Notes under the pieces: generated by a model | Seen by the model: the letters and a program-made list of their open reading frames with translations, nothing else | What the model was told of the DNA's origin: nothing | Database searches by the model: none | In this document: positions 55,035-56,793 of the stretch, piece after piece | Position numbering within the stretch: position 1 is the stretch's first letter | Layout: the number at the start of each line of letters is the position of its first letter | Translations under genes and position numbers: made by a program | Assembly: GCA_013178295.1 (NCBI GenBank) | Contig: JABLWW010000005.1 | Location: 62,001-126,000, forward strand | DNA from: Anaerolineae bacterium | GTDB taxonomy: Bacteria > Chloroflexota > Anaerolineae > Anaerolineales > Anaerolineaceae | Length of the DNA: 64,000 bases | Direction of reading: 5' to 3'

Positions 55035-55064
55035 TTGACTTATTTTGAGAAGGTATGGTATAAG
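55035..55064 (+). promoter_or_regulatory. Promoter upstream of the ribozyme-glnA transcript
   Basis: TTGACT (55035-55040), 18-bp spacer, extended -10 TGG-TATAAG (55059-55064). Transcription would begin at about 55071, some 48 nt before the ribozyme cleavage site. Confidence 0.75.
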
Positions 55065-55118
55065 ATGATCAGGTTTTGAGCGGTAACAGCACCTTACATG
55101 TAGAAAAACGGAGAAATA

Positions 55119-55314
55119 GCGGCTGAGTCTCATCCGCACGGATGAGATGACGAGGTGGAGGTTCCTCTCTGCGAAGAGAGTGCTAACCCTGGTTAACCAG
55201 GGAAAAATCGAAGGATCAGCGGATGCCTCTGGAACCCGGTCACAGGTTCCTTTCTCCCTTCCGAAGAAGCACGGGTTGAAAAGTAACCGGTGACGGTTAT
55301 GACAAAGTCCGTGC
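55119..55314 (+). ncRNA. glmS-class self-cleaving ribozyme in the glnA leader
   Basis: The RNA carries the conserved glmS core in order. The cleavage context is AUA|GCGGC (55118|55119). Hairpin P1 is 55128-55135 / 55140-55147. UGACGAGG (55148-55155) is followed by GGAGG, AUCGAAGGAUC and AGCGGAUGCCUC. P2.2 pairs GCUGA (55122-55126) with UCAGC (55216-55220), a covarying version of the usual GCC/GGC. P3 is GGAACC/GGUUCC (55231-55236, 55245-55250). P4 is GCACGG/CCGUGC (55269-55274, 55309-55314), enclosing P4.1 UAACCG-GUGA-CGGUUA and UGACAAAG. Two extra hairpins (55165-55180, 55187-55202) are inserted after GGAGGUU. The family self-cleaves with glucosamine-6-phosphate as cofactor. The gene downstream is glnA, not glmS. 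Matching was done from memory of Bacillus sequences. Confidence 0.88.
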
Positions 55315-55406
55315 AGTGACCCAAGTTAACCTGCTCAGGTTATTTTGGTTATGCTTTTGAGGAAGGGCTGCCTGATTTGTTTGTGGATATTTGCAACGGG
55401 TATGCC

Positions 55407-55415
55407 TGGTATACT
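55407..55415 (+). promoter_or_regulatory. Possible second glnA promoter downstream of the ribozyme
   Basis: Extended -10 TGG-TATACT, 41 bp before the glnA ATG, with no -35 at normal distance (TTGCAA is 13 bp away). If used, it would give ribozyme-free glnA message. A 6-bp hairpin TAACCT/AGGTTA (55327-55342) with only four T lies between ribozyme and this site. Confidence 0.35.
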
Positions 55416-55455
55416 CGTTGTTTTATTTTAAAAAATTTTTTGTGCGGAGGCTAAA

Positions 55456-56793
55456 ATGGATGCAAAGGATTTGTTGAAACGTGTCAAAGAAGATGAGGTT
55501 GATTTCATTTCGTATCAGTTCACAGATGTGACCGGCACAGTAAAAAGTGTGGATGCGCCTATCTCGCAGTTGGAGTCTGCACTGGAGAATGGTGTCTGGT
55601 TTGATGGTTCTTCTGTGGAGGGCTTTACCCGTATTCAGGAAAGCGATATGCATTTGAGGATAGACCCTGACACGTATGCGGTTTTGCCCTGGACACCGAT
55701 TGAGATGCGGCGCGCACGCGTTTTTTGTGATATTTATGAGCCAGATGGCACACCCTTTGCGGGCGATCCGCGCGGGATTTTGAAGCGCATGTTGAAAAAA
55801 CTGAAGGAAGAGCGTGGCTGGGTGTACAACGTGGGTCCTGAGCCTGAGTTTTTCTTGTTTAAGGCAAATGGGAATGGCGCCTGCCCTGCACCTCACGATG
55901 TAGGTGGGTATTTTGATTTTTCTCCTAATGATGAAGCGGTGCGGGTGCGCACGGAGTTGATGTCTGCTTTGAATATGATGGGATTGGAGGTTGAAGTTGG
56001 GCATCACGAGGTGGCACCTGGGCAGCATGAGATAGATTTTCACTTTGCGGATGCGTTGCGCACAGCAGACAATGTGTTGACTCTCAAGTATACGGTAAAA
56101 GCGATTGCCAATCAGCATGGGTTGGTAGCTTCGTTTATGCCTAAGCCCATTTTTGGGATTAATGGCTCGGGAATGCACTGTCACCAGTCCATCTCCGATT
56201 TGCAAGGTAACCCGTTGTTTTTTGATCCCAGCGATACGTTTAAGCTATCCAAAATAGCTTATGGTTTGATTGCCGGGCAGTTGAAACATGCGCGCGGGAT
56301 GAGCGCGGTGCTTTCGCCTACGGTCAACTCCTATAAACGTCTGGTGCCCGGCTATGAAGCGCCGGTGTATATTGGTTGGGCGCAAATCAACCGCTCTGCG
56401 TTAATCCGTATTCCGCGTTATACGGAAGGTCAGCACAAAGCCATACGTGCCGAATTGCGCTGCCCTGACCCCTCCGCAAACCCATATCTGGCGTTTACTG
56501 CTATGCTTGCTGCTGCGCTGGATGGCATTGATAATCATCTGCCTGTGCCTGAGCCGCTCAACAATGTCAATGTATATCACCTCTCAGCGGAAGAATTGGC
56601 TGAGCGCAATATTGGTCAGCTTCCCGGTTCGCTGCGTGAGGCATTGCTGGAGTTTGAAAAGGATACGGTTGTTAAGGATGCTTTGGGGGAAAGCATCTGT
56701 GAAGCTTTCCTGCGTGCCAAATGGGAAGAGTGGGAAAACTATCGTATTCGGGTGATGGATTGGGAAGTTGCGCATTACCTTGAAACCGTCTGA
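55456..56793 (+). CDS. glnA: Glutamine synthetase type I (alpha, Bacillus-like)
   Basis: A 445-residue enzyme making glutamine from glutamate, ammonia and ATP. FDGSSVEGFTRIQESDMHLRID, GPEPEFFLF, VEVGHHEVAPGQHEIDFHF, GINGSGMHCHQSI and YKRLVPGYEAPVYIGWAQINRSALIRIPRY mark the substrate and metal sites. The length and the absence of an adenylylation loop near the C terminus place it with the feedback-regulated I-alpha type. GCGGAGG precedes the ATG. Its leader carries the glmS-type ribozyme; since glutamine feeds GlmS, control by glucosamine-6-phosphate would close a loop. Confidence 0.97.
   Translation: MDAKDLLKRVKEDEVDFISYQFTDVTGTVKSVDAPISQLESALENGVWFDGSSVEGFTRIQESDMHLRIDPDTYAVLPWTPIEMRRARVFCDIYEPDGTPFAGDPRGILKRMLKKLKEERGWVYNVGPEPEFFLFKANGNGACPAPHDVGGYFDFSPNDEAVRVRTELMSALNMMGLEVEVGHHEVAPGQHEIDFHFADALRTADNVLTLKYTVKAIANQHGLVASFMPKPIFGINGSGMHCHQSISDLQGNPLFFDPSDTFKLSKIAYGLIAGQLKHARGMSAVLSPTVNSYKRLVPGYEAPVYIGWAQINRSALIRIPRYTEGQHKAIRAELRCPDPSANPYLAFTAMLAAALDGIDNHLPVPEPLNNVNVYHLSAEELAERNIGQLPGSLREALLEFEKDTVVKDALGESICEAFLRAKWEEWENYRIRVMDWEVAHYLETV

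Follow-up and report, generated by a model that had tools for sequence, protein, structure and literature searches.

The leader of glnA in this Anaerolineae bacterium holds an RNA of the glmS ribozyme class, which probably cuts itself when glucosamine-6-phosphate is plentiful and is thereby likely to lower the amount of glutamine synthetase. Because the residues of the catalytic core are conserved, we infer that glucosamine-6-phosphate is the controlling ligand. An earlier note on the window (the whole stretch of 64,000 nucleotides that was analysed) had placed a glmS ribozyme before glnA, and this is borne out by the score of the Rfam model, the core residues, the helices and the conserved genomic context. 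Two features had been missed: a covarying helix across the cleavage site, P0, and a 3' terminator-like hairpin with a covarying antiterminator strand; so had the copies that stand before glutamate-synthase-like genes in relatives. The features of the locus are as follows, all on the forward strand.

55035..55064, +, predicted promoter, TTGACT (55035-55040), 18 nt, TATAAG (55059-55064); by eye
55107..55324, +, glmS-class ribozyme; RF00234, 53.1 bits
55110..55116, +, strand 1, GGAGAAA, directly 5' of the cleavage site, 5' half of P0; covariation
55118..55119, +, predicted cleavage site between A and G, with GCG after it; RF00234 alignment, G1 C2 G3 invariant in 26 copies
55120..55125, +, 5' strand of P2.2, pairing with 55217-55221, 55122 bulged in place of nucleotide 6; sequence and covariation
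55150..55155, +, ACGAGG, first active-site strand; invariant in 26/26 copies
55165..55202, +, inserted hairpins P2a (55165-55180) and P2b (55187-55202) within the core; covariation
55231..55250, +, P3, the loop of which (55238-55243) pairs with 55316-55321 (P3.1); sequence and 26-copy covariation
55251..55262, +, strand 2 in J3/4, UUUCUCCCUUCC, 3' half of P0 (55251-55257) and predicted 5' half of P5 (55256-55262); covariation and strand-pairing tests
55269..55314, +, P4 with P4.1 (55283-55300) and the GACAAAG side of the internal loop; RF00234 alignment and covariation
55361..55372, +, strand 3, GGAAGGGCUGCC, predicted to form either P5 with J3/4 or an antiterminator with the hairpin's 5' arm; own-versus-mismatched energies
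55393..55421, +, terminator-like hairpin, followed by UUUAUUUUAA; scan, conserved in glnA leaders
55446..55450, +, likely ribosome binding site GGAGG of glnA; by eye
55456..56793, +, glnA, type I glutamine synthetase, 445 aa; NCBIfam GlnA, 543.7 bits against a cut-off of 429

The ribozyme and its two copies in the genome

The check with the glmS covariance model of Rfam had been set beforehand, and it came out in favour of the ribozyme: positions 1-167 of RF00234 align to the locus with E 1.9e-9 in the 64-kb window, and the score lies above the gathering cut-off of 37 bits. RF00234 is the sole Rfam family that reaches its gathering score in the window, where the glutamine riboswitch RF01739 has no Rfam match. 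Our own covariance model R1, built from 25 glnA-linked copies and one stray copy, scores the locus, which is itself among the 26 sequences of R1, at 241.3 bits (55093-55338). The ATG of glnA follows on the same strand 131 nt beyond the 3' end of the RF00234 match, and its score against the NCBIfam model confirms that the next gene had been named correctly. The TTGACT/TATAAG site is not in the output of our promoter scan because the scan requires a T at the end of the second hexamer. A second promoter 3' of the ribozyme was considered and rejected: the single weak site there (55428-55457) overlaps the start codon, and 0.7 such sites are expected by chance.

The genome, which is 97.8% complete, bears the element twice, once before glmS, whose product makes glucosamine-6-phosphate, and once before glnA, whose product makes its nitrogen donor. 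The second match scores 25.9 bits in the genome search and 32.6 bits when its locus is scanned alone; it lies on a different contig, where 94 nt separate its end from glmS. Thus the description "instead of glmS" holds for the window locus and fails for the genome. The glnA of the window is the only gene with a Gln-synt_C domain found in the genome.

Conservation of the fold

The sequence landmarks listed in the earlier note are all present: AUCGA ends at 55211, CAGCGGAUGCC begins at 55217, the GUGA loop of P4.1 lies at 55290-55293 and GACAAAG starts at 55301. Over the 26 copies of the glnA-linked type, 90.9% of the cells of the named structure, pseudoknots included, are paired; 42 of the 62 pairs have changed on both sides, and none of 500 shuffles reaches this level. 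The stretches GCG, ACGAGG and UCAGCGG are invariant in these copies, and the conserved residues that surround the active site in the core (GCG, ACGAGG, CGG) are also found in the window. The peripheral helices P3.1, P4 and P4.1 with its GNRA loop all occur in the window and are paired in 79.7 to 88.3% of cells. Every pair of the inserted hairpin P2a covaries, and P2b is paired in about 92% of cells.

Helix P2.2 had been said to be preserved by compensatory change, which is right in kind: in the window it consists of five pairs (C55120-G55221, G55121-C55220, C55123-G55219, U55124-A55218 and G55125-C55217) with G55122 bulged. The same five pairs are formed in 98.5% of cells, and the bulge is nucleotide 4, not 6; covariation of P2.2 alone says little since four of its five pairs never vary. 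A passage of PMC7125110 gives nucleotide 6 as the natural bulge and infers that shifted bulges in mutants of another glmS core rescue activity only in part. Because of this partial rescue we count the shifted bulge against our main explanation, and the natural move of the bulge matches the rearrangement that was inferred from those laboratory mutants. One could argue that a glmS-class fold with a displaced bulge and a new target gene has changed its ligand or lost its dependence on one, for example to report glutamine or the nitrogen state; according to part of PMC11602151, a few changes in the active site can abolish the need for the ligand. However, the three core stretches are invariant in the 26 copies, and the position after GCGGA is mostly the canonical U in the glnA-linked type and A in 25 of 41 glmS-linked copies, a comparison whose patterns preselect part of the core, the invariance itself resting on the 26-copy alignment. 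By virtue of this U the glnA-linked type is nearer to the family consensus at that position. We therefore consider a change or loss of the ligand improbable and keep glucosamine-6-phosphate as the predicted signal.

Distribution among relatives

The search for homologous elements before glnA in related genomes was positive. RF00234 has 68 matches in 49 of 61 genomes (our own and 60 relatives); according to tblastn with GlnA and GlmS, 42 of them stand before glmS, 25 before glnA (at 94-157 nt) and one before neither. Both kinds are present in 17 of the 49 genomes, the glmS kind alone in 24 and the glnA kind alone in seven, and one genome has both kinds and the stray copy. R1 separates the two types, as its 26 sequences score at least 183 bits and the 42 glmS-linked copies at most 121 bits.

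Only 17 of the 61 genomes have a match over the Rfam cut-off and many copies lie below it, as would be seen if the element were a decayed glmS ribozyme that has lost cleavage. Against such decay, the low scores accompany the inserted core hairpins, the helices of the 26 copies are maintained by paired changes around an invariant core, and the glnA-linked type is a single branch with a constant place before glnA. We hold decay to be very improbable. The branch (SH-aLRT 98, one long-branched glmS copy inside) was obtained from 94 copies in a brief tree search that left many forks weakly supported. The glnA-linked copy L234 lies outside the main branch and, as it stands apart, the link between ribozyme and glnA may have arisen twice.

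In a sample of the order, some R1 match was present in 225 of 251 genomes, and among the matches listed, counted by hand, 93 copies in 89 of the 251 genomes scored at least 160 bits. Of the 41 among these 93 copies that were classified, 33 have glnA downstream, with or without ada or eamA in between, seven lead to glutamate-synthase-like or MOSC genes, one to an ada-like gene near a contig end and none to glmS. In the class sample some match was found in 235 of 396 genomes; the 110 class loci examined (one was fetched twice) comprise 80 before glmS, 10 before glnA and 20 others. The phylum sample gave a glmS match in 128 of 400 genomes, and the best 30 loci are all before glmS. At E 0.01, RF00234 finds seven of 15 loci found by R1 (four above the cut-off) and misses eight, so the family f12 treated below and some other loci rest on R1.

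The glnA loci of named genomes carry the element in 4 of 80 cases, namely in Bellilinea sp. KatS3mg047, Anaerolineaceae SJ387 and two Chloroflexota MAGs. At E 1 the other 76, both Leptolinea genomes included, are without it, and relatives of this kind that have no glnA copy are counted against the main explanation.

Three observations were made beside these searches. The stray copy, L066 (G029:C1:2896786-2897000), is a third copy of the glnA-linked type that adjoins neither glnA nor glmS, and in the stretch read no long frame follows it on its strand. A 6S RNA (RF00013) was detected at L071:822-998 (72.3 bits) and at L311:137-312 (66.0 bits), and in both cases its end lies upstream of a glnA-linked ribozyme by between a few and some tens of bases. 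In many leaders of the glnA type ACAAYUGAAUA is conserved at a distance of a few bases on the 5' side of P0; the window (55093-55106) is degenerate there.

Helix P0 and the leader 3' of the ribozyme

P0 joins GGAGAAA, directly 5' of the cleavage site, to UUUCUCC in J3/4; it is paired in 87.8% of cells over the 26 copies, and five of its seven pairs have changed on both sides. When own strands were compared with mismatched ones, P0 gave z 8.5 (0/5000) over 67 of the 68 copies of both types (L017 was left out); the simple pattern used for this put the cleavage site in the wrong place in a small number of rows. In energies it gave z -5.6, and the effect is absent with reversed leaders. We know of no published glmS consensus with a helix like P0. 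In many glmS-linked leaders (for example L017, L024 and L035) AGGAGGUG occurs 5' of the ribozyme and, by eye, could pair with CCUCC of J3/4.

The terminator-like hairpin is unremarkable in the window alone (one found against 0.5 expected). Among the 25 glnA leaders, 22 have a hairpin of -10 kcal/mol or lower with a U-rich tail, compared with 12 among 125 shuffled spacers; the same criterion gives 11 of 42 glmS leaders against 20 of 210 shuffled ones. Between ribozyme and hairpin lies a strand containing GGAAGGG (strand 3) with two alternative partners, J3/4 (P5) or the 5' arm of the hairpin (antiterminator). Over 58 leaders the own-versus-mismatched energies gave z -5.3 (0/5000; reversed control -1.2) for the antiterminator and z -3.8 (2/5000; reversed control -2.3) for P5, for which an initial test had given z 2.3, with 82/5000 as high. 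The predicted antiterminator pairing is thus supported and the predicted P5 pairing modestly supported. The bounds of strand 3 are those of the longest contiguous stem and were re-cut once after a null result (antiterminator z -0.2 with the first cut). The 58 leaders were drawn from 70, leaving out L010, L015, L066, L073 and L323 (no P5 stem), L231 (the finder took another hairpin), L051 and L055 (cleavage site unmatched), L183-L185 (no terminator inside the cut) and L006 (spacer too short).

According to the mechanism that we propose, glucosamine-6-phosphate would cause the leader to be cut between A55118 and G55119, and the cut message would then be lost, as cut glmS messages are lost elsewhere according to part of a review (PMC6154101). 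Since GlmS uses glutamine for glucosamine-6-phosphate, GlmS (by way of the second copy) and the enzyme that provides the nitrogen donor would both be curbed by the product. A less supported step could follow: cleavage would take away strand 1 of P0 and free J3/4 to pair with strand 3 (P5), whereupon the antiterminator would be lost and a terminator would form before glnA. This coupling of cleavage to an attenuator, which we infer from the leader sequences, is only partly supported.

The simpler possibility is the classical glmS manner of action, that is cleavage and destabilisation of the message, with the 3' hairpin outside any switch as a fixed partial terminator or a protective structure; we give it somewhat less than an even chance. 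The genome has a gene for RNase J (a single match, 589 bits), which suits both this reading and our own, and P0 and P5 have no more than two bases in common in the window, an overlap that by eye is greater in L231 and L234. Equilibrium folding of 40 leaders points the same way, with a mean of 10.1 terminator and 0.2 antiterminator pairs when J3/4 is free and of 9.2 and 1.2 when it is blocked. Over the whole leader the terminator dominates in both states except in 4 of the 40 (L050, L189, L196 and L199, the window not being included), where the antiterminator leads after J3/4 is blocked. A hairpin that takes no part in switching is, however, at odds with the covariation of the antiterminator strand with its arm and with the fact that the hairpin is typical of glnA leaders and not of glmS leaders. 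Because equilibrium favours the terminator in both states, an attenuator could switch only kinetically; as long as the 3' arm has yet to be transcribed, antiterminator pairs are gained in 23 of the 40 leaders, and lost in one, when J3/4 is blocked. Through P0 and the terminator-like hairpin, a path from cleavage to transcription can be put to the test.

Relation to known RNAs

The window RNA shares with the glmS ribozyme (RF00234) the cleavage site, the double-pseudoknot core, P3/P3.1, P4/P4.1, the internal loop, the GNRA loop and the place in a 5' leader. It differs in preceding glnA, in the P2.2 bulge at nucleotide 4, in the two extra core hairpins, in P0 and in the 3' terminator-like hairpin with its antiterminator strand. 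The survey of McCown from 2011 reportedly has all but two glmS ribozymes in glmS messages. No glnA-linked glmS ribozyme was found in the literature searched, outside of which the 2011 survey lies, and an earlier mention is possible. As a leader RNA of nitrogen-assimilation genes the element resembles the glutamine riboswitch RF01739, whose structure is different. The trp and T-box attenuators likewise have a chain of mutually exclusive strands that ends in a terminator hairpin; unlike in those systems, the first strand of the window leader would go by self-cleavage, in what is a putative switch.

Passages of PMC6154101 and PMC10043782 describe glmS ribozymes as serving genes for the production of glucosamine-6-phosphate. 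The gene served is described as the one whose product makes the ligand. A listing in PMC3766115 has the glnA motif as "glnA, glutamine", and a passage of PMC9481103 places glmS among the classes without tandem forms. The c-di-GMP-II aptamer with its group I ribozyme, as treated in a part of PMC9481103, also ties a ribozyme to gene control; there a separate aptamer controls splicing, whereas in the window the RNA that cleaves itself would also be the one to act on the terminator further downstream. Should the proposed control hold, a precursor of the cell wall would govern nitrogen assimilation in a large and little-studied bacterial group.

Other genes downstream of the element

Thirteen of the 20 other class loci, all of family f12, lead to an ada-like gene (Pfam was read on two), ahead of which a small ABM-like frame lies in two loci. 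Loss of the glnA link in f12 was considered and rejected: nine of the 10 genomes searched have glnA 2.1-2.6 kb further along the contig and in the same orientation; the remaining one, G294, has glnA on a different contig and its ribozyme close to a contig end. Four loci were read through, and in these 58-87 nt lie between an EamA-type gene and the start of glnA; in f12, as also in L306-L310, the arrangement looks like a unit of ribozyme, ada, eamA and glnA. Three further loci of one family with glmS-type copies (L202, L205, L212) lead to a DegT-type sugar aminotransferase (read on L205, 391 bits), which is plausible as an amino-sugar target. In two the next protein has a Glu_synthase region (36 bits in L273, by likeness in L231), one leads to an FAD-linked oxidase and one to a contig end.

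A closer view of 20 order loci gave 12 leading to glnA, one to glmS and three directly to glutamate-synthase-like genes; the other four lead to MOSC-type small genes, and in three of these a glutamate-synthase-like gene comes next. With the Pfam model Glu_synthase, whose cut-off is 20.4 bits, the second gene of L327 scores 238 bits and that of L332 283 bits, and the first genes of L327, L332 and L317 score 22 to 28 bits; the rest are assigned by likeness. It could be that the ribozyme triggers a transcription attenuator before glnA and, in several related families, before glutamate-synthase-like operons, so that an amino sugar would govern both halves of ammonia assimilation, but in this full extent the idea is doubtful. 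A stable glnA branch together with copies before glutamate-synthase-like and sugar aminotransferase genes would turn a feedback device into a regulon. Near one of the copies before a glutamate-synthase-like gene, at L231:2520-2763, a T-box-like leader scores 81.5 bits against a cut-off of 93.
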